Below, in pieces: positions 1,981 to 42,177 of a DNA stretch of 64,000 bases (position 1 is its first letter; each line of letters opens with the position of its first letter). Origin of the DNA: an uncultured Pelagibacteraceae bacterium (lineage in GTDB: Bacteria; Pseudomonadota; Alphaproteobacteria; Pelagibacterales; Pelagibacteraceae). Below the pieces are notes generated by a model. The model did no database searches and was not told the origin of the DNA. It saw only the letters and a list, made by a program, of their open reading frames with translations. The position numbers were made by a program, and so were the translations under genes. Location of the stretch: the NCBI GenBank assembly GCA_902590395.1, contig CACIWQ010000004.1, forward strand, positions 5,001 to 69,000, given 5' to 3'.

Positions 1981-3177
1981 TTATTTTGTTGAGATAATCG
2001 AATTTACCTTATTTATCACATAGTTTACTTCGTTTTTTTTCAAATTTGCAAAAATTGGTAAACTTAAACATCTATCATAATATTTTTCTGCAAAAGGAAA
2101 TTGCCCCCTTTTAAAACCATATTTTTTTAAGTAATAAGGCTGTAAATGAACCGGTATGTACAATACTTGCGTTCCAATATTATTTTTCTTTAAAACTTTC
2201 ATGATTTCATTTCTACTTTTACCCAATTTTTTAAAATTTATTAATATTGTGTATAAATGATAAGCATGTTTTACATCAGAATTTTCAATTGGTGTTTCAA
2301 TCAAATCATTTTTAGCAAAACCTTCGTTGTATATTTTTGCAACTTTTCTTCTTAAGTTTATAAATTTATTGATTTTTTTAAGCTGACTTTCTCCTAGCGC
2401 GGATTGTATATCTGTAATTCGATAATTATAGCCCAATTCATTCATTTCATAATACCACATGTTTGGATTACCTTTTTTGTCAAAAGCTATTTTTTTGTTA
2501 TAAAAATCGTTTGTATTTTTGTGTATGCCATGACTTCTTAAATTTAATAATTTTTTATAAGTATTTTTATTATTTGTTGTTATCATTCCTCCCTCACCCG
2601 TTGTTATTGATTTTATGGGGTGAAAACTAAAAGTAGATAAATCGGAATATTTACAAGATCCAATTTTAGTATTTTTGTAGAAACCACCTAAAGCGTGACA
2701 AGCGTCTTCAATAACATGAAAATCGTATTTTTTTTTTAATTTGTAAATTTCTTGTAAGTTTGCTGGATGGCCTGACATATGAACAACAACAACAGCATCA
2801 ACCTTTTTTTTTATAAGAATTTTCTTTAGAGATTCAATCGAAATACAAAAAGTTGAAGGATCTATATCTGCAAAAAGAGTTTCAGCTCCTACATACTGAG
2901 CGCAATTTGCTGAAGCAACAAATGTAATTGTTGAAGTAAGTAATTTTTTTCCGGGGCCTAAATTCAATGCCAAACATGATAGATGTAAGGCCGCTGTTCC
3001 ATTGGAACATGCAACTGCATATTTGGCACCGACATATTTTGCAAATTTTATTTCAAAATTTTTAACATTTGGTCCTTGGGTAATAAAATCATTCTTTAAC
3101 ACCCTAGATACTTTTTTTATATCACTTTGATCTATTGATTGACGGCCATATGGTAAAAATCTTTTACTTTTTTTCAT
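1981..3177 (-). CDS. DegT/DnrJ/EryC1 sugar aminotransferase (PseC-like)
   Basis: 398 aa; motifs VACSNGTAALHL, EDACHALGG, SFHPIKSITTGEGGMI (PLP lysine). Start overlaps the NeuB-like gene stop. Confidence 0.85.
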   Translation of the reverse strand: MKKSKRFLPYGRQSIDQSDIKKVSRVLKNDFITQGPNVKNFEIKFAKYVGAKYAVACSNGTAALHLSCLALNLGPGKKLLTSTITFVASANCAQYVGAETLFADIDPSTFCISIESLKKILIKKKVDAVVVVHMSGHPANLQEIYKLKKKYDFHVIEDACHALGGFYKNTKIGSCKYSDLSTFSFHPIKSITTGEGGMITTNNKNTYKKLLNLRSHGIHKNTNDFYNKKIAFDKKGNPNMWYYEMNELGYNYRITDIQSALGESQLKKINKFINLRRKVAKIYNEGFAKNDLIETPIENSDVKHAYHLYTILINFKKLGKSRNEIMKVLKKNNIGTQVLYIPVHLQPYYLKKYGFKRGQFPFAEKYYDRCLSLPIFANLKKNEVNYVINKVNSIISTK

Positions 3178-4187
3178 TTGTCATTAAAAACGTTTTTTTT
3201 AATTGGGTTTCCATAACTAATATTTATAGGAGATTTTTTATTTAGTAATTTTTCATAATAGATAGGAGGCAGACCATAACCTGGCCTAATTCTTCTCACG
3301 TTTTTCTTGGTAAATTTTTCTCCTTTTCTAATATTTTTTGATGCAAAAATTGAACGTCTAAAAACTTTGCTTTTATTCTCAGATTTATTTCTATAAAAAT
3401 ATTTTTTACCCATCAGTTTATAAACTTCATTTATTTTAGATCTAAATTTTTTAATTTCTTTACCTTTTAACGAAAAAGCTATATCGATTCCTTTTTTCTG
3501 ATTATCAAGAGCTATGTGTTTTTCAATTATTTCTGCTCCAGCCGCAACAGCAGCGACCGCAACCTTATCATCTTTTGAATGATCAGAAAGACCAATTCTA
3601 CATTTAAATCTTTCTTTTAATATTTTTATATTATTTAAATTGAAATCTTCGTTACTAGATGGATAATTACTAACACAGTATAATAACGTAATATCTTTGG
3701 CCCCGTATTTTTTGGCTATTTTAACGGTTCTATCTATATCGTGAAGACTTGCCATTCCAGTAGAAATAATCATTGGCTTTTTTGTTTTAGCAATTTTTTT
3801 AATTAAAGGAATGTCGGTCATTTCAAATGAAGCAACTTTATATATTGGGCATTTTAATTTTTCTAAAAAATCTACCGCAGTTTCATCGAATGGAGTGCTA
3901 AATATTTTTATCTTAATTTTTTTTGCATATCGAAAAAGTTTTTTATGCCAAGCTAAAGGCGTTTTTGCTTTATTGTACAAATCCCACAAATTATAACCCT
4001 TCCACAGACCGTGTTTTATTTTAAAATATTTTTTGTTTGATCTTAAAGTCATAGTATCTGCAGTGTAGGTTTGCAATTTTACGGCGTCCGCTCCATTAAT
4101 CTTTGCGCATTTAATCAATTTAATGGCTTTCTTTAAGCTTCCGTTATGGTTTGCTGATATTTCTGCTACTAAAAGGGGTTTTTGCAT
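3174..4187 (-). CDS. NeuB/PseI-family nonulosonic acid synthase
   Basis: 337 aa; VAEISANHNG, KLQTY, STPFDETAVDFLE, IGLSDHS motifs plus C-terminal SAF/AFP-like domain (RRSIFASKNIRKGE). Confidence 0.88.
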   Translation of the reverse strand: MQKPLLVAEISANHNGSLKKAIKLIKCAKINGADAVKLQTYTADTMTLRSNKKYFKIKHGLWKGYNLWDLYNKAKTPLAWHKKLFRYAKKIKIKIFSTPFDETAVDFLEKLKCPIYKVASFEMTDIPLIKKIAKTKKPMIISTGMASLHDIDRTVKIAKKYGAKDITLLYCVSNYPSSNEDFNLNNIKILKERFKCRIGLSDHSKDDKVAVAAVAAGAEIIEKHIALDNQKKGIDIAFSLKGKEIKKFRSKINEVYKLMGKKYFYRNKSENKSKVFRRSIFASKNIRKGEKFTKKNVRRIRPGYGLPPIYYEKLLNKKSPINISYGNPIKKNVFNDK

Positions 4188-4321: not shown

Positions 4322-4963
4322 ATGGAACTAAAAATTAGAAATGCTCGATTAAAGGATACTAGATTTATATACAATCTTAGGAACGACATTATTTCCAGAA
4401 AACATTCTTTAAATAAAAAAAAGATAAAATATAAAGACCATTTTTTTTGGTTGAAAAAAAAAATAAATAAAAAAAGAGATAAAATTTTCATAATTTGCAA
4501 CAAAACAGCAAACAAAAATATTGCTTATGTAAGATTCGACAAAATGGATTTATTTACGAGAGTATCAATAGCTATAGACAAAAAGTTTAGAGGAAGGGGT
4601 TTTTCCAAAAACATTTTAAGTATGGCAGAAAACCAATTAAATAAAGTTTCAATTTTGTTTGCGGAAGTAAACAAAAAAAATATAGCATCTTATAAATTGT
4701 TTGAAAAAAATAATTACGTTCTTTTAAATAAGAAAAAAAATTTTTTCCAATTTATTAAAATATTAAACAAAGACCATCAGAATAAAATTTTTATGGAGAC
4801 CATCGACAGAATCCAAAATACTAGAAAAAAGAACAACGTTAACTGGATGGATATTTTGAGAATTGCTTTCACAAATTCACCCAAGGCAACATCTATAATT
4901 TTTAAAAGAATAACATCTTGTGACAATGAAATTAACAATTTATCAAAAAAATTATCAAAATAA
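4322..4963 (+). CDS. GNAT N-acetyltransferase with an extra C-terminal helical domain
   Basis: 213 aa; N-terminal ~150 aa GNAT-like (RGRGFSKNIL, NIASYKLFEKNNY); separate C-terminal segment IQNTRKKNNVNWMDILRIAFTNSPKATSIIFKRITSCDNEINNLSKKL. Confidence 0.7.
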   Translation: MELKIRNARLKDTRFIYNLRNDIISRKHSLNKKKIKYKDHFFWLKKKINKKRDKIFIICNKTANKNIAYVRFDKMDLFTRVSIAIDKKFRGRGFSKNILSMAENQLNKVSILFAEVNKKNIASYKLFEKNNYVLLNKKKNFFQFIKILNKDHQNKIFMETIDRIQNTRKKNNVNWMDILRIAFTNSPKATSIIFKRITSCDNEINNLSKKLSK

Positions 4964-4966
4964 TAA

Positions 4967-6265
4967 ATGAAAAAAAATAGAAAAAAAGTTTACGTAGGTT
5001 TATCCGCAGATATATTACATAATGGTCACATAAATATTTTAAAAGTTGCCAATAAACTTGGCGACGTAACTGTGGGTTTGTTAACCGATACAGCTATTTC
5101 AGAATATAAAAAATTCCCTCATTTAAACTACAAACAAAGATTGACAGTACTCAAAAGTGTAAAATATATTAAAAAAATTATTCCGCAAGAAACTCTAGAT
5201 TATTCAAAAAATTTAATAAAATTAAAACCAGATTTTCTAGTTCATGGTGATGATTGGAAAAAAGGAATCCAAAAATTAACAAGAACAAAAGCAATAGCTT
5301 GTCTTAAAAAATGGAGAGGTAAATTAATTGAACCTAAATATACTAAAAATATTTCATCATCCTTAATCAAAAAAAAATTATCTGATTTAGGAACTACGCC
5401 GGATGTTAGACGAGCTAAGCTAAAAAGATTAATTCATGCCAAAGATATAGTAAGAATTATAGAAACACATAGTGCCCTATCTGGTTTGATAATTGAGAAA
5501 TTAAATTATAATAAAAGAAATAAGTATATTGAATTTGACGGTTTTTGGTCATCAAGCTTAACTGATTCAGCCTTACGAGGAAAACCTGATAATCAATCAG
5601 TAGATTACTCAACAAGAATGTTAGGCTTAAATGAAATTTTTGAAGTAACAACTAAACCATTAATTTTTGATGCAGATAATGGAGGTAGAGTAGAGCATCT
5701 ACCTTATTTAGTTAAATCACTAGAAAGGATAGGTGTTTCAGCAATAGTTTTAGAAGATAAAATAGGTCTTAAAAGAAACTCTTTATTTCAAGACCAACAA
5801 AAAACAAAGCAGGATACAGTCAAAGGATTTTGTAAGAAAATTGAAATTTCAAAAAAATCTAAAGTAACAGATGATCTTATGATAGTTGCTAGAATCGAAA
5901 GTTTTATACTAGGAAAAACACTTAATGACGCTTTAAAAAGAGCAGAAGCTTATTCTAGAGCTGGTGCAGATGCGATTTTAATTCACAGTAAAGAAAAAAA
6001 TGCCAATCAAATATTTACATTTTCCAAAAAATTTTTGAAAAGCAAATATTACAAACCCCTAATAGCCGTTCCCTCTACATATTCAAAAACATATGAACGT
6101 GACTTAATAAACAACGGATTTAAGGTTGTTATTTATGCCAATCATCTTTTGAGAGCGTCTTACCCAGCAATGCTAGATGCTGCTAAAAAAATCTTAATAA
6201 AGCAAAGATCTTTTGAGGCCGAAAGAAAAATAAGCCCAATAAACAAAGTACTAAATCTTATTTAG
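4967..6265 (+). CDS. pepM: Phosphoenolpyruvate mutase with N-terminal cytidylyltransferase-like domain
   Basis: 432 aa; N-term VGLSADILHNGHI (HxGH nucleotidyltransferase), C-term PEP mutase signature VLEDKIGLKRNS and FDADNGG. Confidence 0.92.
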   Translation: MKKNRKKVYVGLSADILHNGHINILKVANKLGDVTVGLLTDTAISEYKKFPHLNYKQRLTVLKSVKYIKKIIPQETLDYSKNLIKLKPDFLVHGDDWKKGIQKLTRTKAIACLKKWRGKLIEPKYTKNISSSLIKKKLSDLGTTPDVRRAKLKRLIHAKDIVRIIETHSALSGLIIEKLNYNKRNKYIEFDGFWSSSLTDSALRGKPDNQSVDYSTRMLGLNEIFEVTTKPLIFDADNGGRVEHLPYLVKSLERIGVSAIVLEDKIGLKRNSLFQDQQKTKQDTVKGFCKKIEISKKSKVTDDLMIVARIESFILGKTLNDALKRAEAYSRAGADAILIHSKEKNANQIFTFSKKFLKSKYYKPLIAVPSTYSKTYERDLINNGFKVVIYANHLLRASYPAMLDAAKKILIKQRSFEAERKISPINKVLNLI

Positions 6266-6267
6266 CT

Positions 6268-7371
6268 ATGATTTTTGTTAAAGAACTATTAGCTACATTG
6301 AAAAAAAATAAAGTTAATTTTTATGCCGGTGTTCCTGATAGTGTTTTAAAAAATTTATCAATTTATTTCAATAAGTTGGGTAAAAACAAACATATTATAG
6401 CGGCAAATGAGGGGTCAGCCGTTTCCCTAGGCATAGGTCATTATTTGGCTACAAAAAAAATTCCTTGTGTGTATTTACAAAACTCCGGTTTAGGAAATGC
6501 AATAAATCCAATAATTTCTATAGCACACAAAAAAGTTTACTCAATTCCATTGCTACTTATGATTGGGTGGAGGGGATCTTATGGTCAAAAAGATGAACCA
6601 CAGCACGAAGCAAAAGGTAAAATTACCCCAAGCCTGCTAAAATTACTGGGTATAAAATATTGTGTATTACAGAAAAAAAAGGATTTAACCAAGCTTAATA
6701 AATTAATAAAAGGGGCATATAAAACTAAAAAAATTGTTGCATGCTTAATTGAGAGAAATATTCTTAAAACAGATTTAAAAGAAAATATATCAAAAAAAAC
6801 TAAAAGTTCTTTTTTAAGAAAAGATTTTATAACTGAACTTTTAAAACAAATTTCAGTAAATTCAAAAATAATTTCTACAACAGGGTATACATCTAGAGAA
6901 CTAATGCAAATTAGAAAAGAAAAAAAATTATTCAAAGGACAGGATTTTTATATGGTAGGTGGTATGGGACATGCCTCAATGGTTAGTTTAGGATTTTCAA
7001 TGAATTCAAAAAAACAAACTATTTGTTTAGATGGAGACGGTTCAATCCTTATGCACCTAGGATCTCTAAGAACTTTAGGATATTTAGGTAATTCTAATTT
7101 AAAACACATATTACTAAATAATAATTCACACGAATCTGTAGGAGGCCAGCCTACTACAGCAAAAGGAATTGATTTTAAAAAATTATCAAAAACTTTTGGT
7201 TATAAAAAATATTATAAAATTTTAAAAAGAGAAAATGTTAAGCGAGAAATTAAAAATTTTCTTAAATCTGAAGGTCCAAGTTTTCTAGAGGTAATAATTT
7301 CTACCGGCACCTTAAAAAATTTATCCAGACCAAATAATTTAATTAAAATAAAAAAAAAATTTATGGAGTAA
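6268..7371 (+). CDS. ppd: Phosphonopyruvate decarboxylase (ThDP-dependent)
   Basis: 367 aa directly after pepM; FYAGVPDSVLK, AANEGSAVSLGIGHYLAT, QNSGLGNAINP, ThDP motif GDGSILMHLGSLRTLG. Confidence 0.92.
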   Translation: MIFVKELLATLKKNKVNFYAGVPDSVLKNLSIYFNKLGKNKHIIAANEGSAVSLGIGHYLATKKIPCVYLQNSGLGNAINPIISIAHKKVYSIPLLLMIGWRGSYGQKDEPQHEAKGKITPSLLKLLGIKYCVLQKKKDLTKLNKLIKGAYKTKKIVACLIERNILKTDLKENISKKTKSSFLRKDFITELLKQISVNSKIISTTGYTSRELMQIRKEKKLFKGQDFYMVGGMGHASMVSLGFSMNSKKQTICLDGDGSILMHLGSLRTLGYLGNSNLKHILLNNNSHESVGGQPTTAKGIDFKKLSKTFGYKKYYKILKRENVKREIKNFLKSEGPSFLEVIISTGTLKNLSRPNNLIKIKKKFME

Positions 7372-7374
7372 AAT

Positions 7375-8490
7375 TTGAAAAATTTAACATTATCAACTGA
7401 AAATGATCTAGAAAATTTTATTAAAAGCAAAAAATATATGAAAGTTTTTGTTATATCAGGAAAGAAATCTTATACAATTTCTGGAGCAAGTCATCTTTTA
7501 AAAAAAATTTTAAAAAAAAAAATAGTAAAATTTTACTTAAAAAATTCCTCATATCCTGAAATTTCTGAACTTAAAAAAATAGTTTTTTCAATAAAAGATT
7601 TTTTGCCTGATTTGATATTAGCTGTCGGAGGAGGCTCGGTTATTGATTATGGAAAAATAGCAAATGTAGTGCAAAATATTACAAATTTAGAAAAACATAT
7701 AATTAATTCGAGCTTTAAATTTAAAAAAAAATATACCCAATTAGTTGCAATTCCAACAACTGCTGGCTCAGGCGCCGAAGTAACATCAAATGCTGTTATT
7801 TATATTGATAAAATAAAATATTCTTTAGAAAACAAATTAATAAAACCTGATCGTTTTTTTTTAATACCTGAGCTGGTAGTTAACTCTTCAAAAAAAATAA
7901 AAGCGGCAGCGGGTTTTGATGCTATTGCTCAAGCAGTTGAGTCCCTTATTTCAAAAAAATCAAATTATCAAAGTGCTTACTATGCAAAAAAATCTTTAAA
8001 TATTTCACTTAAGTATTATCTAGAGTATTTAAAAAGGCCAAATATTGAAAATTCAACGGCAATGTGTCTGGCTGCTAACTTAGCAGGTAAAGCAATCAAT
8101 ATTTCAAAAACTACAGCTCCTCATGCGGTCTCCTATCCTTTTGCATCTTTATATGGCTTAAGTCATGGACACGCTGTTTCTCTTACAATTGAGAAATTTC
8201 TTAAGTTTAATTACGTCAACCATAACTCCGCGAAATGCAATTTTGATTTACAATCAAGATATAAAAATATTTTCGAAATATTTAAAGTTAAAAATATTCT
8301 TGAATTGGAAAAATTATTTATAGATATGAAAAGTAAAGCTAATTTAATAGATGATTTCAAAAAGCTTAAAATTAATTTGAATACTCAATTAGATAAAATA
8401 ATCGATGGTGTAAATTTACAAAGATTAAGAAATAATCCTGTAGATTTGAACAAAAAGGACGTAAAAACAATATTGCTTGGATTTAATTAA
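7375..8490 (+). CDS. Iron-containing alcohol dehydrogenase, probable phosphonoacetaldehyde reductase
   Basis: 371 aa; GGGSVIDYGK, PTTAGSGAEVTSNAV, GLSHGHAVSL motifs; third gene of the pepM-ppd operon. Confidence 0.8.
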   Translation: MKNLTLSTENDLENFIKSKKYMKVFVISGKKSYTISGASHLLKKILKKKIVKFYLKNSSYPEISELKKIVFSIKDFLPDLILAVGGGSVIDYGKIANVVQNITNLEKHIINSSFKFKKKYTQLVAIPTTAGSGAEVTSNAVIYIDKIKYSLENKLIKPDRFFLIPELVVNSSKKIKAAAGFDAIAQAVESLISKKSNYQSAYYAKKSLNISLKYYLEYLKRPNIENSTAMCLAANLAGKAINISKTTAPHAVSYPFASLYGLSHGHAVSLTIEKFLKFNYVNHNSAKCNFDLQSRYKNIFEIFKVKNILELEKLFIDMKSKANLIDDFKKLKINLNTQLDKIIDGVNLQRLRNNPVDLNKKDVKTILLGFN

Positions 8491-10646: not shown

Positions 10647-11477
10647 TTATTTGATTTTTAAAACTAATTTTTCGATAAATTTTTTAAAGTACACTAAATA
10701 AAAACCACCCAAGAAAATCATAATTAATCTAAAAAGTATTAAATAGTATATAAAGTTTGAAAGAATAATTTTATCATAACCAATTTCTATTAAAATTATC
10801 AATCCGATGAAATCTACTGTTCTAGCTCTATCATCAAGGAAACTTTGAAAAAAATTTTTTAAAAAAATTAAAAAACCTGAAATTTCATTTTCTTTATTGC
10901 TAATTTTATTTTTTATATTTTTAGATTTTACAATGGATTTTTTATTTTTATAAAATTTATACATTAAGTGATGGTAAGTATAATCTTTTATATCAAGAGC
11001 TTTAGTTGTGATTATCAATATCATGCAATATACAAAATGAATTTCTTGTGTAGAATTATACAAATACATTCCTAAACCGATTAAAAAACTAAACGACCCT
11101 ACAAGTCCACCCCACGAATCTAAAACATCACCCAACTCAGAAGTTTGTTTTTTTAATCTTGCTAAGAGTCCATCACTCCAATCAAATATTCCTTTAAAAA
11201 AAAATACAATTACACCAGTTACAATCATAATTTTTGATTCTGAACTTAATAAAATACCACCGATGACTCCTGACAAGGCGTAAGACAAAGAAATCCAATT
11301 TGGTTTTATTGGAGTATGTTGTATAAAAAACACAAAAAGAGCAGAAAGTTCAATTATGATTCTCGACTTGAGCGCGTTATAAGGAGAATGTAACCAGTCA
11401 TCAATATCTGCATTAGCTTCCCTGGTCAGTTTTCTTTGGGTTTTATAGTGAGCTTTTCTAATATTAATATAATTCAT
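10647..11477 (-). CDS. CDP-alcohol phosphatidyltransferase family membrane protein
   Basis: 276 aa; motif DWSDGLLARLKKQTSELGDVLDSWGG matches D-x2-DG-x2-AR-x8-G-x3-D-x3-[D] except the last position is Gly; multiple TM segments. Confidence 0.75.
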   Translation of the reverse strand: MNYINIRKAHYKTQRKLTREANADIDDWLHSPYNALKSRIIIELSALFVFFIQHTPIKPNWISLSYALSGVIGGILLSSESKIMIVTGVIVFFFKGIFDWSDGLLARLKKQTSELGDVLDSWGGLVGSFSFLIGLGMYLYNSTQEIHFVYCMILIITTKALDIKDYTYHHLMYKFYKNKKSIVKSKNIKNKISNKENEISGFLIFLKNFFQSFLDDRARTVDFIGLIILIEIGYDKIILSNFIYYLILFRLIMIFLGGFYLVYFKKFIEKLVLKIK

Positions 11478-11599: not shown

Positions 11600-12670
11600 T
11601 TGATAAAAACATTTAGGAATAAAAATGTTGTTGTAACTGGGCATACCGGATTTAAGGGATCATGGTTAGTGGCCTGGCTACACTTGTTGGGGGCAAATAT
11701 AATGGGCATATCACTAGATCCCACCTCTAAACCATCTCACTTTGAATCTTTAAAAATTTCAAAAAAAATAATTGATGTAAGACTAAATTTATTAAATTTA
11801 AAACAACTTAAGAAAAAAATTTCAAATTTTAAACCAGATTTCGTTTTTCATTTGGCAGCACAATCAATTGTAAGTAAATCTTATAAAGAACCCTTATTGA
11901 CCTGGCATACAAATTTAATTGGTACTTTAAATGTTTTGGAGGCTTTAAAAAGTTTAAATAAATTCTGCGTTGGCGTAATAATAACGAGCGATAAGTGCTA
12001 TAAAAATTTCGAAATTTCAAAAGGTTACAAAGAAACAGATATACTTGGTGGCGACGATCCCTATAGCGCATCAAAAGGAGCTGCTGAAATTGCAATTAAT
12101 TCATATATTAAATCTTTTTTATACAATAACAAAAAATTTAGAATCGCTAGCGCAAGAGCAGGAAATGTTATTGGCGGGGGAGACTGGAATTCAAGCAGAA
12201 TTATTCCCGATTGTATTAGAGCAGCAATAAAAAACGATACTGTAAAAATTCGCAATTTAAATGCAACCAGACCTTGGCAGCATGTAATAGAGTTAATTTA
12301 TGGATATCTTCTTTTAGCAAAAAAATTAAAAAATAATTCTAATATTCATGGAGAATCATTTAATTTTGGTCCACGCGAAAATTTAAATTATTCAGTTTTA
12401 GATGTTTTGAAAGAAATTAAAAAAAATTGGAAAAATTTTAAATGGAAAAAAATTAAATTTAAAAAAAATAAACTCAAAGAAGCTAAATTATTAAGTCTTA
12501 ATTGCAAAAAAGTTAATAAAATTTTAAAATGGAAACTATCTATGAATTTTTCTCAAACAATTAAAACTACAATAGAATGGTATAAAAATTACTACAATAA
12601 AAAAGAAAATGCTTTTTTAATTACATCTAAACAAATTAAAGAATATCAAAAAAAAATAGAAAAATTTTAA
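11600..12670 (+). CDS. rfbG: CDP-glucose 4,6-dehydratase
   Basis: 356 aa; VVVTGHTGFKGSWLVAWLHLLGA, FHLAAQSIVSKSYKEPLLTWHTNLIGTLNVLEA, YSASKGAAE. Confidence 0.9.
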   Translation: MIKTFRNKNVVVTGHTGFKGSWLVAWLHLLGANIMGISLDPTSKPSHFESLKISKKIIDVRLNLLNLKQLKKKISNFKPDFVFHLAAQSIVSKSYKEPLLTWHTNLIGTLNVLEALKSLNKFCVGVIITSDKCYKNFEISKGYKETDILGGDDPYSASKGAAEIAINSYIKSFLYNNKKFRIASARAGNVIGGGDWNSSRIIPDCIRAAIKNDTVKIRNLNATRPWQHVIELIYGYLLLAKKLKNNSNIHGESFNFGPRENLNYSVLDVLKEIKKNWKNFKWKKIKFKKNKLKEAKLLSLNCKKVNKILKWKLSMNFSQTIKTTIEWYKNYYNKKENAFLITSKQIKEYQKKIEKF

Positions 12671-12683
12671 AAAATAGAAATAC

Positions 12684-13400
12684 ATGTTAAACGAAAAAAT
12701 TGCAGAAAAAAAAATAGATAATAACTTGGTATTAGCGGCTAATATTTTTTACAAACATAAAATAGATTATTGGTTTTGTCACGGAACACTTTTGGGTATT
12801 GTTAGGGACAAACAATTAATTGAGTGGGACCCAGACATTGACGTTGCTATTTGGGAAGAATCGGTTTCTAGAAGAAAAATCACAGAAATTATGACTATAA
12901 ATAATTTTAAACTTAAGACAGATTCTTTTTTTATTGGAGATAATTTATTAAGCTTTACTAAAGAAGGTGGAAGAAAAGTAGATATTCATTTCTATAAAAA
13001 AATGTATGATAAAATTAAGAATCAACATATGGCTGTTGTTTACATGTCATATTTACCGAAAAATATTTTTTTTAAAGTTTTGGATGTTCTTTCTATTGCT
13101 AAAACATATAGAGGAAAATATAAACTTTTTGTAAAAATATTTGGTATTTTTCAATCTTTCTTCTTATTTTTTAAAACAAAGCTAGTAAAAAAAAATATTT
13201 TTTACAAATCAGCTGGTTATTGTGAACCAATGGAACTTTTAAATGAATTCAAAGAAATTGAATTTTTTAATACTAAAGTAATTATACCTTCTAAATCCGA
13301 AGAGTGTTTGGAGTATATATATGGACAAGATTGGAAGATTCCAAAAAAAGACTTTTATTATGCGGAAGAGCGAAAAAATAGCCCAACAACAATAACTTGA
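12684..13400 (+). CDS. LicD/fukutin-like nucleotidyltransferase-fold phosphotransferase
   Basis: 238 aa; IDYWFCHGTLLGIVRDKQLIEWDPDIDVAIW matches the LicD-type GTLLG...R...WDxDID core. Confidence 0.7.
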   Translation: MLNEKIAEKKIDNNLVLAANIFYKHKIDYWFCHGTLLGIVRDKQLIEWDPDIDVAIWEESVSRRKITEIMTINNFKLKTDSFFIGDNLLSFTKEGGRKVDIHFYKKMYDKIKNQHMAVVYMSYLPKNIFFKVLDVLSIAKTYRGKYKLFVKIFGIFQSFFLFFKTKLVKKNIFYKSAGYCEPMELLNEFKEIEFFNTKVIIPSKSEECLEYIYGQDWKIPKKDFYYAEERKNSPTTIT

Positions 13401-13401
13401 C

Positions 13402-14115
13402 ATGCAAAATAAATATAAAAATATGAAAGTTGTTATACTAGCAGGTGGTTTTGGCACCAGACTATCAGAATATACAAAAACAATTCCAAAACCCATGATT
13501 AATGTTGGTGGCAAGCCAATACTTTTACATATTATGAAAATGTATGCCAAATATGGCTTTAAAGACTTTTACATTGCATTGGGATACAAGGGAAAAATAA
13601 TCAGAAATTTTTTTAAGAAAAGTATTTATGACTGGAATATTAATCTTATAGATACTGGAAAAAACACCATGACTGGCGGAAGATTAAAAAAATTAAAAAA
13701 ATATATTGGGAAAGAAACTTTTTTTATGACCTACGGAGATGGATTGTCAAATATAAACTTAAAAAAATTATTGAAATTTCATAAGAAAAAGAAAAAGTTG
13801 GTAACGTTAACCGCTGTAAGACCACCAGCTAGATTTGGAGCTCTTAAACTTAAAGGTCAGAACGTAAGTTATTTTAAAGAAAAATCAAGGGTCGACGAAG
13901 GATGGATAAACGGTGGTTTTTTTGTCATGGAGCCTGAATTTTTAAAGTTTATTAAAAGTGATAGCACTTATCTTGAACGTGAACCTTTGGAAAAAGCAAC
14001 TAAAAAAAAGGAATTAGTTGCATATAGACATGAAGGATTTTGGCAGTGCATGGACACAAAAAGAGATATGGATAAGTTAAATCAAATTATAAAAAAAAAG
14101 AAAATTAAATTTTGA
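13402..14115 (+). CDS. rfbF: Glucose-1-phosphate cytidylyltransferase (probable true start ATGAAAGTTGTT at 13423)
   Basis: MKVVILAGGFGTRLSEYTKTIPKPMINVGGKPILLHIMK...MTGGRLKKLKKYIG...MTYGDGLSNI. Confidence 0.92.
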   Translation: MQNKYKNMKVVILAGGFGTRLSEYTKTIPKPMINVGGKPILLHIMKMYAKYGFKDFYIALGYKGKIIRNFFKKSIYDWNINLIDTGKNTMTGGRLKKLKKYIGKETFFMTYGDGLSNINLKKLLKFHKKKKKLVTLTAVRPPARFGALKLKGQNVSYFKEKSRVDEGWINGGFFVMEPEFLKFIKSDSTYLEREPLEKATKKKELVAYRHEGFWQCMDTKRDMDKLNQIIKKKKIKF

Positions 14116-16502: not shown

Positions 16503-16877
16503 TTATTTTAATTTTCCTTCCTTTCGCATTTCTTTTCTAATTTTAGTCGCAGAAATTTTTTGAATATTATCTGGCAAAATTACCTCTTCTATCGTATAGC
16601 CGACGCCTCTTCCATAGCTAATATTGGTTATATTAGGAACCAGCATTACTTTAAATCTATTTTTATATTTTGGTTCCAATCTTTCTATGATCTTAGATTT
16701 AACATATTCAAAATCGAAAGGATTGTCATCTACGCCCTGAACATCTCTTACTTGAATGCACACTTGTCCTGTTTTTTTTATAATTTCTTCAAAAAGAGCG
16801 TAGTGCCCATCATGAAAAGGCTGCCATCTTCCTAACATTTGTGCAGTAGGTTTTTTGTTATCCCATTCGTACGACAT
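16503..16877 (-). CDS. Small nucleotidyltransferase (HxGH type)
   Basis: MSYEWDNKKPTAQMLGRWQPFHDGHYALFEEII...ISATKIRKEMR; start set to the ATG overlapping the upstream stop. Confidence 0.75.
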   Translation of the reverse strand: MSYEWDNKKPTAQMLGRWQPFHDGHYALFEEIIKKTGQVCIQVRDVQGVDDNPFDFEYVKSKIIERLEPKYKNRFKVMLVPNITNISYGRGVGYTIEEVILPDNIQKISATKIRKEMRKEGKLK

Positions 16878-17089
16878 TATTTTATTTTCTCCGCTATTTT
16901 TATTGCCCATTGTTTAGCATTTTGAGTTGTAACGTGGCAATCGAATTTTTCAGGTTTTACAAACATAGCATTAGTATCATCATACCGACCTTTCTTAATA
17001 GTATCTATCCAAACAATATAATACGGACTTAGTATACGCTTGACCTTATTCTTGTAAAAGTTAAATTTATACAATGCCAGTCCTTTCAA
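16877..17089 (-). CDS. Short protein, weak resemblance to the C-terminal part of adenylylsulfate-kinase-like proteins
   Basis: 70 aa; IVWIDTIKKGRYDDTNAMFVKPEKFDCHVTTQNAKQWA; no P-loop kinase N-terminus; TTG start overlaps the divergent gene. Confidence 0.4.
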   Translation of the reverse strand: MKGLALYKFNFYKNKVKRILSPYYIVWIDTIKKGRYDDTNAMFVKPEKFDCHVTTQNAKQWAIKIAEKIK

Positions 17090-22535: not shown

Positions 22536-23930
22536 TTAACCTAAATTTTTCACTATTTCTTCAGTCATTTTTTTTGCATCAGCGAATAGCATTAAGGTAT
22601 TATCTCTATAAAATAATTCATTATCAATCCCAGCATAACCAGGAGACAAGCTTCTTTTGACAAAAAGAACTGATTTTGATTTTTCAACATCTAATATAGG
22701 CATTCCGTAAATTGGGCTTTTAGGATCTGTCTTAGCAACAGGATTTGTTACGTCATTTGCTCCAATTACAAATGCAACGTCTGTATTAGCAAAATCATTA
22801 TTTATGTTTTCTTGTTCAAAAACTTCGTCATAAGGAACGTTTGCTTCAGCTAATAAAACATTCATATGACCTGGCATTCTTCCTGCTACTGGATGAACAG
22901 CATAGGAAACTTTTACTCCATTTTTTTTTAAGTTATCTGCCATTTCTCTTACCACATGCTGAGCTTGAGCAACGGCCATTCCATAACCTGGAACAATTAT
23001 TACCGATGAAGCATTTTTCATTAAAAATGCGGCGTCTTCTGCATTTCCGCTCTTGACTGGTTTTTTATTTTGATTCTTATCTATTGACGAATTTGTTGTT
23101 CCAAACCCACCTAGAATAACACTAACAAATGAACGATTCATTCCTTTACACATAATGTAAGATAAAATGGCTCCTGAAGAACCTACAAGCGCACCAGTAA
23201 TTATTAATGCTGTATTTTCTAAAGTAAAACCAATTCCTGCAGCAGCCCATCCTGAATAAGAATTAAGCATAGAAATAACAACCGGCATATCCGCGCCTCC
23301 AATTGGTATAATTAATAAAAGCCCTAACAAAAAAGATATTTCAATTATTCTCCAAAAGATGCTGTCAGACTGTGTTCTACAAAGATAAAAAATTAATACT
23401 ATAATTGATATACCGAGTAATAAATTAATATAATGCTGCCCCTTAAAGGTAATTGGTGAGCCTGACATTATTCCTCGTAGTTTTAAAAAAGCTATTATTG
23501 ATCCTGAAAAAGTAATTGCACCTACAGCAGCGCCAATCGACATCTCAATTAAACTCGAAACTTTAATATCTCCTGGCGAACCAAGATTAAAAGCTAGTGG
23601 ATTTAAAAAAGCTGATATTGCCACGAAAACCGCAGCAAGACCCACAAGACTATGAAAGCCAGCGACTAGTTCTGGCATTGCCGTCATTGGTATTTTATAC
23701 GCTATGAAAGCTCCTATTGTTGCACCCACCAGCAAGAAAATTAACACGTAAATGAAACCAGTAGAAAAATTTCCTATAGACAAAAAAGTTACAGTTATAG
23801 CAATTATCATTCCTAAAATTCCAAATAAATTTCCTCTTCTAGAAGTTTCTGGTGATGATAGTCCTCTTAAGGCTAAAACAAATAATATGCCAGAAATCAG
23901 ATAAAATATTGCTAATAAATTTGCCGACAT
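22536..23930 (-). CDS. pntB: NAD(P) transhydrogenase subunit beta
   Basis: 464 aa; VIIVPGYGMAVAQAQHVVREMADNLKKNGVKVSYAVHPVAGRMPGHMNVLLAEANVPYD, VIGANDVTNPVA. Confidence 0.96.
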   Translation of the reverse strand: MSANLLAIFYLISGILFVLALRGLSSPETSRRGNLFGILGMIIAITVTFLSIGNFSTGFIYVLIFLLVGATIGAFIAYKIPMTAMPELVAGFHSLVGLAAVFVAISAFLNPLAFNLGSPGDIKVSSLIEMSIGAAVGAITFSGSIIAFLKLRGIMSGSPITFKGQHYINLLLGISIIVLIFYLCRTQSDSIFWRIIEISFLLGLLLIIPIGGADMPVVISMLNSYSGWAAAGIGFTLENTALIITGALVGSSGAILSYIMCKGMNRSFVSVILGGFGTTNSSIDKNQNKKPVKSGNAEDAAFLMKNASSVIIVPGYGMAVAQAQHVVREMADNLKKNGVKVSYAVHPVAGRMPGHMNVLLAEANVPYDEVFEQENINNDFANTDVAFVIGANDVTNPVAKTDPKSPIYGMPILDVEKSKSVLFVKRSLSPGYAGIDNELFYRDNTLMLFADAKKMTEEIVKNLG

Positions 23931-23932
23931 AT

Positions 23933-24241
23933 TTATTTATTTTTTTTCTTCTTTTTATACATTTGAAGCATCCTTTGTGTTACCAAGAAGCCTCCAAAAA
24001 TATTTATCGCAGCTAAAAATATTGCCAGAAAGCCAAATATATTTGATGTATTAAAAATACTTTCTATATTACCTGACAATCCAGCAATTATAGCTCCCAC
24101 AATAATTACCGATGAAATTGCATTTGTCACAGACATCAAAGGAGTATGTAATGAAGGCGTAACACTCCAAACTACATAATAACCAATAAATATAGATAGT
24201 ACAAAAATGCTCAATCTAAATATAAATGGATCTATTTCCAT
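23933..24241 (-). CDS. NAD(P) transhydrogenase subunit alpha, membrane part
   Basis: 102 aa; VWSVTPSLHTPLMSVTNAISSVIIVGAI, GGFLVTQRMLQMYKKK. Confidence 0.93.
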   Translation of the reverse strand: MEIDPFIFRLSIFVLSIFIGYYVVWSVTPSLHTPLMSVTNAISSVIIVGAIIAGLSGNIESIFNTSNIFGFLAIFLAAINIFGGFLVTQRMLQMYKKKKKNK

Positions 24242-24243
24242 AA

Positions 24244-25344
24244 TTACAACTCTTTATCGATTAATGTTTTTTTTATAATTTCATCTTCTTCATTAATGTA
24301 AATATCTTTTTTATCTTTGCTATAAAGATTATTTACAAAATTAAATAAATTTTTTGCATATAAACTTGACGCAGTTGATGCTAAACTATTTAAAATATTT
24401 TTCGAACCCATTATTTTTACACCACTTACTACTTTTATTTTATCTGGCTCAGAAAAAGCTGAATTTCCACCTTGAGATACTGCTAAATCATATATTATAG
24501 AACCAGGCTTCATACTTTTTACCATTTCCTCAGAAATAATTCTTGGGGCCTGTTTGCCCGGAATCAAAGCAGTACAAATAACTATATCGTTTTTTTTAAT
24601 AGAATTTTTTAATAATTCTTCCTGTTTTTTTTTAAAATCTTTTCCTGCTTCTTTAGCGTAACCACTACTTGTTTCTAGATTTTCAGAGCCCTCAACCATT
24701 AAAAATTTGCCTCCTAAACTTTCTACTTGTTCTTTAACTGCTGTTCTAACATCTGTAGCAGATACTATAGCACCTAATCTTTTTGCGGTAGCAATAGCTT
24801 GGAGTCCAGCTACACCGGCTCCTATTATTAATACTTTTGCAGGCGTAATAGTTCCAGCAGCTGTCATCATCATAGGAATAGCTTTTTCAAATTCTTTAAC
24901 AGATTCAATTACAGCCCTATAACCCGCTAAATTAGCTTGAGACGACAGAACATCCATAGATTGCGCTCTTGTAATTCTAGGCAATAGGCTAAGTGAAAAA
25001 ATTTTGATATTTTTTTTAATCAATTTATTAATAGATTCTTTGTCTAGCAAAGAGTCAAATTGCCCAATTAATATTGATTTTTCTTTAATTAAACTTATTT
25101 CATTAACACTAGGGCAGCTGACTCTTAAAATTATTTCAGATTTTTCTAAAATTTCTTTGGGGGAGCTGTAAAATTTTGCACCATTGTTTTCATAATCTTT
25201 ATCATCAAAACCTAGATGTTTTCCGTAATTTTTTTCTAAATAAACGTTAAATTTTAGATTAATAATTTTTTTTGTGGTTTCCGGGGTAATAGCAATTCTT
25301 TTCTCTGTATTAATAGTTTCACTTACAGATCCAATACCTTTCAT
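24244..25344 (-). CDS. NAD(P) transhydrogenase subunit alpha, soluble part
   Basis: 366 aa; RIAITPETTKKI, VLIIGAGVAGLQAIATAKRLGAIVSATDVR, CTALIPGKQAP. Confidence 0.93.
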   Translation of the reverse strand: MKGIGSVSETINTEKRIAITPETTKKIINLKFNVYLEKNYGKHLGFDDKDYENNGAKFYSSPKEILEKSEIILRVSCPSVNEISLIKEKSILIGQFDSLLDKESINKLIKKNIKIFSLSLLPRITRAQSMDVLSSQANLAGYRAVIESVKEFEKAIPMMMTAAGTITPAKVLIIGAGVAGLQAIATAKRLGAIVSATDVRTAVKEQVESLGGKFLMVEGSENLETSSGYAKEAGKDFKKKQEELLKNSIKKNDIVICTALIPGKQAPRIISEEMVKSMKPGSIIYDLAVSQGGNSAFSEPDKIKVVSGVKIMGSKNILNSLASTASSLYAKNLFNFVNNLYSKDKKDIYINEEDEIIKKTLIDKEL

Positions 25345-35831: not shown

Positions 35832-36566
35832 ATGAAAAATTACAAAGAAATATTCGAAGATAAAGGTTATTTTATTTTAAAAAAAATCTTTGATGAAAAT
35901 ACAATAAAAAAAGTTTGTACAGAAATACTAGATTTAAACGATACCATTAAATACTTTGATAGAAACGGGTATCCACGAAGAATAGAAAAATTTTATGACA
36001 AAAATTCAACTTTCGAAAATTTAAATAAAAAATTATTGGAAGAGCTGGAGAAAATTTTTGGGGAAAAGTTTACTATTTTTAAAGACAAATACAATGCCAA
36101 GCCCCCCGGAGGCGAGGGTTACTATTCGCATTATGATGGAATTTTTAAATGGAAGGATAAAAATTTAAATTATCGAAAAGGATGGTACGACTATACTGAT
36201 TACTTTATCAATGCGTTGATAGCCCTAGATCCCAATACTAGTGAAAACGGCAGGTTTGAAATTGCGAAAATGCATAATGACACTTTTGAAAAATTGTTAA
36301 AAAACACTAAACAAGACGGAACACCCCATTTACTTCCTGAGATTGAAAATAAATGTGAGTTTGAAAAATTAGATTTAGAACCTGGTGATTTAATTATGTT
36401 CAGCCACAAATGTCCCCACAGATCAAGCAAAAATAAAAGCAAGAACTCTAGAAGAATTTTGATTTTTACCTATACTCGTGTAAGCGATGGTTCTTTTTAT
36501 GATAAATATTACGAAGATAAAAACACAAGCAAAAATACTGATAAAAGTTTGATTGGAGAATATTAA
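35832..36566 (+). CDS. PhyH-like Fe(II)/2-oxoglutarate dioxygenase
   Basis: 244 aa; YFILKKIFDENTIKKVC, HYDG, EPGDLIMFSHKCPHRSSKN..RR. Confidence 0.7.
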   Translation: MKNYKEIFEDKGYFILKKIFDENTIKKVCTEILDLNDTIKYFDRNGYPRRIEKFYDKNSTFENLNKKLLEELEKIFGEKFTIFKDKYNAKPPGGEGYYSHYDGIFKWKDKNLNYRKGWYDYTDYFINALIALDPNTSENGRFEIAKMHNDTFEKLLKNTKQDGTPHLLPEIENKCEFEKLDLEPGDLIMFSHKCPHRSSKNKSKNSRRILIFTYTRVSDGSFYDKYYEDKNTSKNTDKSLIGEY

Positions 36567-39851: not shown

Positions 39852-40799
39852 ATGACGCTTTCAGATCAACAAAAGAAAGAAATATTAGAACAACAAAATC
39901 AAAAAAATACCACAAAAAGAGTCACATCACCTGAACTTGAAAAAATTCTTTACGAAGCTTTACCAGTTCTCGATCATGGATTTGTGAGAGTAGTAGATTA
40001 TATGGGTGATGATAGTTCTATTGTCCAGGCCGCTAGGGTTTCCTATGGAAAAGGTACAAAAAAAGTTTCAACAGATAGTGGTTTGATAAAATATTTAATG
40101 AGACATAGGCATAGCACTCCATTTGAAATGTGTGAAATAAAATTTCATGTCAAATTACCAATTTTTGTTGCAAGACAATGGATTAGGCACAGAACAGCAA
40201 ATGTTAATGAATATTCTGCCAGATATTCGATTTTGGACAAAGAATTTTATCTGCCTTCCAAAGAAAACCTTGCGGCGCAGTCTACAAGCAACAGACAGGG
40301 TAGAGGAGATTTAATAAATGGAAAACAAGCAGATAATATTTTAAAAATTTTGAAAAAAGATGCAGAACAAACTTATGCAGACTATGAGATTTTGTTAAAT
40401 GAAAAATATGACGGAAGCACAATCGATAAAAATAATAAAGGTTTGGCTAGAGAATTAGCTAGAATGAATTTGACTTTAAATACTTATACTCAATGGTATT
40501 GGAAAACAGATTTATTAAATTTATTAAATTTTTTATCTTTAAGAGCCGACAGCCATGCCCAATATGAAATAAGGGCATATGCGGATGTTATGATTGATTC
40601 TTTAAAAAGATGGGTGCCTATAACTTTTGATGCTTTTATGGATTATAGGATAGGAGGAATGGAATTATCAGCAAAAGGCAAAGCGGTAATCGTTAAAATG
40701 ATGAAAGGACAAAATTGTGATTTTAAATCCTCCAATCTTTCAAAAAGAGAATGGAATGAACTGATGGAGTCTTTCGGTTTTAAAGAAAAGATTTGCTAA
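39852..40799 (+). CDS. thyX: FAD-dependent thymidylate synthase
   Basis: 315 aa; [44 protein letters not shown] (RHR motif). Confidence 0.96.
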
Positions 40800-41194
40800 A
40801 TTAATTTAAAACCACTTCGTGATTTTTTTCTCAATAAACTAGCGCTAACATTTTTTGTTCTCTTTAAAATTTTTACATACTTTTTATCAAGTGAATTTTT
40901 ATTATCCGAGCCGTGTATCATTAGATCAAATTTGTGTTTTTTAAAAAATTTATTGTCTATATTGAAGTTACATTTTATTACGCCAGAGACATATTTAATT
41001 GATGATATAATTTCCTTTCTACTTTTAAAGTTTAACAAAGGGCCATATTTTTTATATTTTTTGATTTCCTTATCTGAGGTAAGCCCAACGTAAACTTTTC
41101 CGTGTGCAGAAGCTTTTTTAAGCAATCTAATATGACCGTGATGTAGAATAGATACAGACATATCTACTAATATTTTTTTTTTCTTTTTTTTCAT
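40796..41194 (-). CDS. Small cytidylyltransferase, candidate phosphonate cytidylyltransferase (PntC-like)
   Basis: 132 aa; [32 protein letters not shown]...LMIHGSDN; paralogous to the N-domain of the pepM product; abuts the AEP-transaminase-like gene. Confidence 0.7.
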
Positions 41195-42177
41195 TATTTA
41201 ATAGAAATTTTTTTTAATATTTCAGCTTTTGCGGCTTTACCCAAATGCGCTTCACCTAAATGACAAACCACGCTACCCGGTAAAGTATTTCTAGCTTTAT
41301 AAAAAATTACTCTTTTATCTTTCGCTTTTAATTTGCAAGTCGTATACGTACAAAGCAAGGGTTGATTTTTTTTGCCAAATATTAATTTACTATCAAAAAT
41401 TTTCATAAATTTATTTTTATTAATCCTAACAGAGTAAGCAAAATTATTATGGTTTGCCAAAATTTTTTCTAATGATTGAATGGAGTGATAAGGTCCTGTC
41501 ATTCTTTTTTGGATATGCGAGTTTATATCTAAATTAAAAGAAGAAACCTCATTTTCAGGATTATGGTTATATGAAACAAAACAAGCTCCAGTTAATCCAA
41601 ATAATCCCTTACAAGAACTAAAAGAAATAACATCAGCTAATTCATGCGACGATTCTAATCCTATTGAAGCAGTTGCATCTAAAGCCAATTTAGCTTTCAC
41701 TTTTTTTGAAAATTTTTTAAGTTCTACAATTGGTATTTTTAAACCGCAACTAGTTTCAGTAGGACATGCCCAGACCCAATCAAATTTCCCAGAAAAATTC
41801 TCTAAATCTTTCCAATGTACTTTTGAGATTTTGCGTATTTTTTTTAAATTTTTTTTAGCATTTAAACACATTTTAAAAAGTCTATCGGAGTAATAACCTG
41901 TAGATACAATTAAAATTTTGCCGTATAAGAAATTTAAGGAAACAACTTCTAAAGCAAAGCTGCCAGAACCCTGCATGCGTACCACTTTTTTTTGTCCACT
42001 AATTTTTTTTAATTTTGAAAGAACTTTTTCCTCGACTTTTATGTACTCTGAATCATTTCGACCAAAACAAGGACCAAGACCTGATAAATTTTCTGCCACT
42101 AGACTGGAGGGTCCAGCAGTAAACAGAAACTTTTTACTGTTTTTATTACTTACAAAATCTTTTAATTTTTTTTCCAC
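41194..42177 (-). CDS. Class V aminotransferase, probable 2-aminoethylphosphonate:pyruvate transaminase
   Basis: 327 aa; FLFTAGPSSLVAENLSGLGPCFGRNDSEYIKVEEKVL...VVRMQGSGSFALEVV (PhnW-type QGSGSxxxE), SFSSCKGLFGLTG PLP lysine. Confidence 0.75.
   Translation of the reverse strand: MEKKLKDFVSNKNSKKFLFTAGPSSLVAENLSGLGPCFGRNDSEYIKVEEKVLSKLKKISGQKKVVRMQGSGSFALEVVSLNFLYGKILIVSTGYYSDRLFKMCLNAKKNLKKIRKISKVHWKDLENFSGKFDWVWACPTETSCGLKIPIVELKKFSKKVKAKLALDATASIGLESSHELADVISFSSCKGLFGLTGACFVSYNHNPENEVSSFNLDINSHIQKRMTGPYHSIQSLEKILANHNNFAYSVRINKNKFMKIFDSKLIFGKKNQPLLCTYTTCKLKAKDKRVIFYKARNTLPGSVVCHLGEAHLGKAAKAEILKKISIK

Follow-up and report, generated by a model that had tools for sequence, protein, structure and literature searches.

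The window analysed here is a stretch of 64,000 nucleotides of an uncultured Pelagibacteraceae bacterium (assembly GCA_902590395.1, contig CACIWQ010000004.1). We found that it carries an operon at 4967-8490 which, together with partner genes scattered over the same contig, probably encodes a SAR11 pathway for surface phosphonates that are activated by cytidylylation. The case is built on enzyme families, a domain fusion, intact motifs, operon spacing, synteny and co-occurrence among relatives. From these we infer which substrates are used, in which order the steps run, which acceptor is served and where the product ends up, as follows. The C-terminal domain of the PEP mutase (PepM) protein would convert phosphoenolpyruvate (PEP) to phosphonopyruvate, and phosphonopyruvate decarboxylase (Ppd) would turn this into phosphonoacetaldehyde, the decarboxylation pulling the reaction forward. 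In one arm an iron-type alcohol dehydrogenase (Fe-ADH) would reduce phosphonoacetaldehyde to 2-hydroxyethylphosphonate (HEP), which the N-terminal domain of the PepM protein would join with cytidine triphosphate (CTP) to give the cytidine monophosphate (CMP) conjugate CMP-HEP. In the other arm a PhnW-like transaminase would form 2-aminoethylphosphonate (AEP), to be converted to CMP-AEP by a neighbouring stand-alone cytidylyltransferase. A PhyH-family oxygenase probably hydroxylates the HEP- or AEP-type product, most likely at C1. Finally, the phosphonate would be handed on from CMP by a LicD/FKRP-like transferase and/or a membrane CDP-alcohol (CDP, cytidine diphosphate) phosphotransferase, the acceptor being a sugar or lipid of the surface glycan whose synthesis is predicted for the gene block around the operon.

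The PepM-Ppd-FeADH operon

The core consists of three intact open reading frames (ORFs) on the forward strand, separated by gaps of 2-3 bp:

4967-6265, + strand, cytidylyltransferase-PepM fusion of 432 amino acids with Fom1 architecture (PF01467 plus PF13714, TIGR02320)
6268-7371, + strand, phosphonopyruvate decarboxylase (Ppd/AepY), 367 amino acids (TIGR03297, 391.2 bits against a cutoff of 312.5)
7375-8490, + strand, iron-type alcohol dehydrogenase, putative phosphonoacetaldehyde reductase, 371 amino acids, TTG start (PF00465, 89 bits; PF25137, 60 bits)

The initial annotation had called the same three genes, and the calls were borne out, PepM and Ppd by scores above the curated cutoffs and Fe-ADH by its PF00465 and PF25137 matches. 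PepM reached 356.9 bits on TIGR02320 (cutoff 319.55) versus 74.5 bits on the methylisocitrate lyase (prpB) model, and its EDK-x5-NS motif is intact (E263, D264, K265, K269, N271, S272) and invariant in the alignment. By family the product is a PEP mutase, for which catalysis is predicted. An identity as isocitrate/methylisocitrate lyase, which had been named as the finding that would undo the assignment, was rejected on the basis of the curated hidden Markov model (HMM) scores and the motif rather than of a phylogeny including those families. A second match to the PepM model in the source genome (130.8 bits, G000:C7) lies under the cutoff and was not counted as PepM.

The length of the PepM protein follows from a cytidylyltransferase domain at its N-terminus (residues ~5-137, PF01467 match 14-136), which precedes the PepM domain (residues ~148-432). 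In the PDB this domain is matched best by its Fom1 counterpart (5x3d, E 3.5e-45, 52% identity), and its motifs are intact: HxGH (H18-x-G-H21), GDD (G94-D-D) and ISSS. The domain thus has the sequence characteristics of the Fom1 type and is predicted to form CMP-HEP. Rice et al. 2019 (PMC6697681) describe the PF01467 domain of Fom1 as making CMP-HEP and report in their text that 23.6% of PepM proteins carry PF01467. Given the fusion, CMP-HEP is a likelier end product of the operon than free HEP, and it is the form that would lend itself to being transferred to a polymer. The earlier proposal that the operon yields HEP thus stands as far as HEP is a product; it was incomplete, as the fusion had been missed and an AEP-type arm and the PhyH oxygenase are also present in the window.

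To place the operon, a scan was made in which each bacterial and archaeal species was represented by one genome, and it returned more than 500 relatives; the best 80 loci were used, with flanks of at most 10 kb. Beside the fused PepM, a Ppd homolog was found at 74 and an Fe-ADH homolog at 70 of these 80 loci in other genomes, so that the triad is not a chance arrangement. Judged by gene content, PepM-Ppd-FeADH is a conserved module that extends from Bacteroidota to Woesearchaeota.

Partner genes and the two cassette types

On the basis of co-occurrence and synteny among 296 relatives, 36 of which are PepM-positive, four further loci of the window join the system:

41194-42177, - strand, PhnW-like class V aminotransferase, putative phosphonoacetaldehyde to AEP transaminase, GTG start (TIGR03301, PDB match, synteny)
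40796-41194, - strand, stand-alone cytidylyltransferase paired with the former, putative CTP:AEP cytidylyltransferase (PF01467, 52.2 bits)
35832-36566, + strand, PhyH-family Fe(II)/2-oxoglutarate oxygenase, putative phosphonate hydroxylase (PF05721, 40.1 against 22 bits)
12684-13400, + strand, LicD-family protein, candidate CMP-phosphonate:glycan phosphonyltransferase (PF04991, 47.6 bits against a gathering threshold of 22.6)
10647-11477, - strand, CDP-alcohol phosphotransferase, candidate CMP-phosphonate:lipid or glycan transferase (PF01066, 48.2 bits)

All nine relatives with a PhyH homolog were PepM-positive (nominal hypergeometric p 2e-9), and the same held for 10 of the 11 with a CDP-alcohol phosphotransferase homolog (p 2e-9), 8 of the 9 with an aminotransferase homolog (p 2e-7; the exception is G017, which is 55% complete) and 7 of the 9 with a LicD homolog (p 7e-6). 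A glycan gene of the block that served as control (208-1977) occurred in 8/35 PepM-positive versus 4/45 PepM-negative genomes (p 0.12). The surface-linked fate that the initial annotation had suggested is supported. The two candidate transferases (LicD and CDP-alcohol phosphotransferase) are part of the window, and both tend to be found with pepM.

Within the Pelagibacteraceae loci basically two cassettes can be discerned. The HEP-type consists of PepM-Ppd-FeADH, whereas the AEP-type lacks Fe-ADH and combines PepM-Ppd-aminotransferase with a stand-alone cytidylyltransferase, to which various selections of PhyH, LicD, CDP-alcohol phosphotransferase and RfbF/G-like genes are often added; mixed cassettes also exist (L285, L287). 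Among the 37 PepM-positive genomes, the window genome included, 22 have Fe-ADH only, 6 the aminotransferase only, 3 both and 6 neither (Fisher p 0.036), so that the two genes tend to exclude each other at the genome level. The three genomes with both are the window genome, G278 (one PepM and a detached aminotransferase-cytidylyltransferase pair) and G028 (two PepM loci). In the PepM tree the Pelagibacteraceae form two groups apart from other phyla, separated with full support and with L032 as an outlier; the window falls in the group with HEP-type neighbours and the other group is mostly AEP-type. In this tree the AEP-type tag of L054 derives solely from a distant aminotransferase (35% identity), not counted as the same gene. 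Considering that the window genome possesses both Fe-ADH and the aminotransferase, two arms, HEP and AEP, are predicted to draw on one phosphonoacetaldehyde pool.

The top PDB match of the aminotransferase is an AEP-pyruvate transaminase. Its K190, within an SSCK motif, is invariant in 12 homologs and lines up with the SGK found in an AEP transaminase; by analogy with the family, it is the presumed active-site lysine that binds pyridoxal phosphate. A homolog adjoins the fused PepM at L033 and L275. The stand-alone cytidylyltransferase, for which the top PDB matches are ethanolamine-phosphate cytidylyltransferase and Fom1, matches PF01467 only and not the MobA-like PF12804 profile of PntC; it partners the aminotransferase at L272-L277, L279 and L232.

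The fused cytidylyltransferase has degraded motifs at L033, L062 and L074. The idea that it is dead wherever a stand-alone enzyme is present finds no general support; most AEP-type fusions retain HxGH and ISS. Additional stand-alone Fom1-like cytidylyltransferase ORFs were seen near PepM at L062 (9971-11730), L058, L060, L285 and L287. At L062 the fused domain is without HxGH and the extra copy retains it, which suggests replacement.

Candidate transferases, sugar genes and the PhyH oxygenase

The PF04991 match of the LicD protein spans only positions 3-42 of the 227 in the profile. Invariant residues comprise GTLLG..R and D-x-D-x-D (D49, D51, D53), and the top fold match of the predicted structure is FKRP, a CDP-ribitol-using transferase, at ~14% identity. 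A LicD homolog adjoins Ppd at L032, and a homolog of the CDP-alcohol phosphotransferase is the gene directly after the fused PepM at L033. Two sugar genes flank LicD:

11600-12670, + strand, GDP_Man_Dehyd-family sugar dehydratase, RfbG (CDP-glucose 4,6-dehydratase)-like, TTG start (PF16363)
13402-14115, + strand, NTP_transferase-family sugar-1-phosphate nucleotidyltransferase, RfbF-like (PF00483)

Cassettes of the AEP and mixed types contain homologs of the former (L274, L275, L284, L285, L287), and a homolog of the latter (75% identity) is syntenic with LicD-Ppd at L032. The names RfbG and RfbF are to be read as putative.

The PhyH protein conserves the metal and 2-oxoglutarate residues of the HxD...H...R pattern (H100, D102, H196, R207), and its AlphaFold model has an Fe/2-oxoglutarate hydroxylase fold at a predicted local distance difference test score (pLDDT) of 90.5. 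The closest curated name is the methylphosphonate hydroxylase PhnY (NF052437), on which it scored 64.6 bits, well under the cutoff of 500. At L037 and L283 a homolog sits between PepM and Ppd. The substrate of the window protein and the position of attack given above are guesses.

Insertion sites and viral contigs

The thyX and mrp genes of 18 relatives are immediate neighbours whose 3' ends overlap; in the window the cytidylyltransferase-aminotransferase pair is inserted between these two genes. The same site holds PepM-Ppd-FeADH in AG-920-L18 (L049) and G149 (L290), and in G017 (L232, 4332-7773) a GNAT gene, a B12 radical-SAM gene, the aminotransferase and the cytidylyltransferase. The G017 radical-SAM gene is closest to the Sden_1168 P-methyltransferase family (231 bits versus a cutoff of 575), which hints at a methylated phosphonate. 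Other cargo includes a RuBisCO-like gene in G029 and a PhnE-type permease in G020. Since such other cargo is found there too, the thyX/mrp site is a general hotspot that has been used repeatedly by phosphonate cassettes. A second recurrent position is near pntAB, where PepM loci were found at L273, L274, L285, L287 and L291 and where the window block is likewise located (22536-25344).

Taken to its full extent, the arrangement would amount to a switchable surface chemotype: two parallel CMP-phosphonate arms fed by a single PepM/Ppd pool, C1 hydroxylation by PhyH, LicD/FKRP-type mounting on one glycan, and cassettes swapped between strains at the pntAB flank and at thyX/mrp. We put this combination forward tentatively, as conceivable but short of probable.

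The PepM-positive G020 (L215) has, by mrp, a PhnE-type phosphonate permease above the cutoff (283.5 bits) and an ABC ATPase; it is possibly a producer that also takes up phosphonates. Close to 30 IMG/VR contigs classed as viral (L122-L150, L155) contain a full-length cytidylyltransferase-PepM fusion, most of them together with an Fe-ADH homolog and a Ppd divided between two ORFs. At least some of these may be true phage, given a phage-type Holliday junction resolvase on L123 and a weak late-sigma-factor match on L137. In INPHARED, only two phage records, both unannotated and faecal, span most of the fusion.

Weighing of the evidence and alternative explanations

Several observations weigh against the proposed pathway. 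Fe-ADH scored 117.5 bits on TIGR03405 (PsrA), the one curated phosphonate Fe-ADH model, versus a cutoff of 423.7, and was not filed as PsrA; its role as reductase therefore rests on synteny. Its metal site retains D182, H250 and H264 and has Gln186 in place of the usual second metal-binding His. Since Gln is found at this position in 30/30 pelagibacteral and 36/52 other PepM-linked homologs (the remainder having His), it is a trait of the subfamily and not gene damage. The aminotransferase reached 61.3 bits on TIGR03301 (PhnW/AepZ) versus a cutoff of 360.8, so that its role as AEP transaminase rests on the linkage to PepM, and because 32-36 kb separate the genes of the AEP arm from pepM this linkage is comparative and not that of a single operon. 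The LicD structure model is of low confidence (pLDDT 62) and was used as support only. The co-occurrence p-values take no account of shared ancestry among the relatives, and the control glycan gene was run on a smaller genome set than the test genes. The source genome (926 kb) is 73% complete, and the contig to the left of the window reads N: bases 1-600 (L040) are N where read and without ORFs, and no Rfam match marking an rRNA boundary of the glycan island was found in this flank, which itself reads N.

The distance of 32 kb between pepM and the aminotransferase-cytidylyltransferase pair, the sub-threshold transaminase score, the ethanolamine-phosphate cytidylyltransferase as top PDB match and the other cargo at thyX/mrp, like the RuBisCO-like gene in G029, would all suit a genome in which the HEP arm alone is active and the 40796-42177 pair serves a non-phosphonate purpose, for instance the activation of an amino-alcohol or phospho-alcohol, and merely occupies an insertion hotspot. 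We regard this as unlikely, though it deserves serious consideration: the pair lies within the PepM cassettes of relatives (L272-L277), eight of the nine relatives bearing the homolog are PepM-positive, and the very site between thyX and mrp holds PepM-Ppd-FeADH at L049 and L290. Alternatively, the transaminase and PhyH could be catabolic enzymes of the PhnW/PhnY type that turn scavenged AEP into phosphonoacetaldehyde, the PepM operon being biosynthetic. PhyH does resemble the catabolic methylphosphonate hydroxylase model and the transaminase PhnW, and the text of Lockwood et al. (PMC9381506) proposes that PhnW and PhpC can turn scavenged 2-AEP into 2-HEP. Yet in relatives both genes are found inside PepM-Ppd-cytidylyltransferase-LicD cassettes, and production and degradation of phosphonates are seldom seen in one genome according to Acker et al. 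(PMC8931226, main text), which makes a catabolic role improbable.

A free small molecule, fosfomycin-like or another secreted phosphonate, for which CMP activation would serve tailoring and not surface attachment, seems very improbable. This idea has a precedent in Fom1, which serves fosfomycin biosynthesis with CMP-HEP as a transient intermediate (from the title of a reference within PMC6697681), and in the P-methyltransferase-family B12 radical-SAM gene by the transaminase-cytidylyltransferase pair of the relative G017. Among the window proteins scanned, by contrast, there was no P-methyltransferase-type B12 radical-SAM protein and no epoxidase; moreover, the occurrence of LicD and CDP-alcohol phosphotransferase among relatives follows that of PepM, and the Prochlorococcus phosphonates were located in a high-molecular-weight protein fraction (PMC8931226, main text). 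The surface-phosphonate pathway with its two CMP-activated arms is thus the reading we prefer.

Relation to known systems and significance

SAR11 bacteria are among the most abundant bacteria of the ocean, and marine phosphonates feed aerobic methane release; the source and chemical form of these phosphonates is the question that the locus addresses. A concrete route of predicted enzymatic steps, leading from PEP to a phosphonate ester on the cell surface, is offered by the fused cytidylyltransferase together with the LicD and CDP-alcohol transferases linked to PepM. The route would fit the presence of 2-HEP as esters on dissolved polysaccharides, as given in the text of Lockwood et al. (PMC9381506).

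The fusion resembles Fom1 of the fosfomycin pathway of Streptomyces wedmorensis in domain order, in the 52% identity of the cytidylyltransferase, in its intact motifs and in a PepM above the cutoff. In contrast to Fom1, which belongs to an antibiotic cluster, the fusion, whose activity is a prediction, is placed among surface-glycan genes that include LicD-type transferases. In the Pnt/PntC type of phosphonyl tailoring (Rice et al. 2019, PMC6697681, as described in the text) CMP-activated AEP is likewise followed by a proposed LicD-like transfer to a cell-surface glycan; PntC is a PF12804 protein, whereas both cytidylyltransferases of the window belong to PF01467. FKRP has been solved with CMP and with CDP-ribitol plus a sugar acceptor; as it is the top fold match of LicD, an analogous transfer of a phospho-alcohol from a CMP conjugate to a sugar would be expected, although the window protein is only ~14% identical and its model of low confidence.

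The pepM clusters of SAR11 and Prochlorococcus (Acker et al. 2022, PMC8931226) and the pepM-aepY-phpC sets (Lockwood et al. 2022, PMC9381506) are similar in that pepM, decarboxylase and reductase occur together in Pelagibacterales, near glycan genes and with a patchy distribution. According to the text of these papers, already published are the location of pepM within glycan islands of SAR11, the horizontal spread of the gene and the proposal of a surface fate (PMC8931226), the co-occurrence of pepM-aepY-phpC in Pelagibacterales (PMC9381506), CMP-activation and PepM-cytidylyltransferase fusions (PMC6697681) and LicD-like neighbours (PMC6697681, PMC9381506). The PepM-positive SAR11 isolate HTCC7217 is listed as a phosphonate producer in PMC8931226. 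The main texts of Acker et al. and Lockwood et al. differ from the present account in not featuring exchangeable cassettes, a dual-arm genome or a PepM-linked PhyH. The HEP/AEP cassette split, the dual-arm genome and the PepM-linked PhyH appear to be new, with no prior description in a limited literature search that excluded supplements.

The split into HEP-type and AEP-type provides gene markers with which the phosphonate of a strain might be predicted, beyond the counting of pepM. The window genome seems able to make both hydroxy and amino phosphonates, whereas most PepM-positive relatives have the genes for one only. Swappable cassettes at fixed sites suggest variation in surface chemistry, as would be expected where phages or grazers exert pressure.

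Neighbouring genes

The initial annotation had recognized no methylphosphonate synthase (MpnS) in the window; in agreement, none was present among the window proteins scanned by HMM, a scan that left some window ORFs and the rest of the genome uncovered. Directly upstream of the fusion, ending 3 bp before it, lies what may be the first gene of the operon:

4322-4963, + strand, GNAT acetyltransferase (PF00583; PseH model 29.7 bits against a cutoff of 93.1)

The gene is probably co-transcribed with the PepM operon and may be a PseH-like enzyme or a phosphonate N-acetyltransferase; no homolog adjoins PepM in the loci of relatives that were compared. An APS-kinase-like gene (PF01583) recurs by the HEP-type operon at other loci (L038, 11105-11632; L283, 12707-13225; L286, 6665-7210). 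At 16503-16910 the window has a short nucleotidyltransferase with a weak PF01467 match, NMN-adenylyltransferase-like under the cutoff, by a GmhA-like sugar isomerase; an 83% identical homolog is found near PepM at L074. Finally, the pseudaminic acid genes PseC and PseI (1981-4187) scored above curated cutoffs and run in the opposite direction to the operon.

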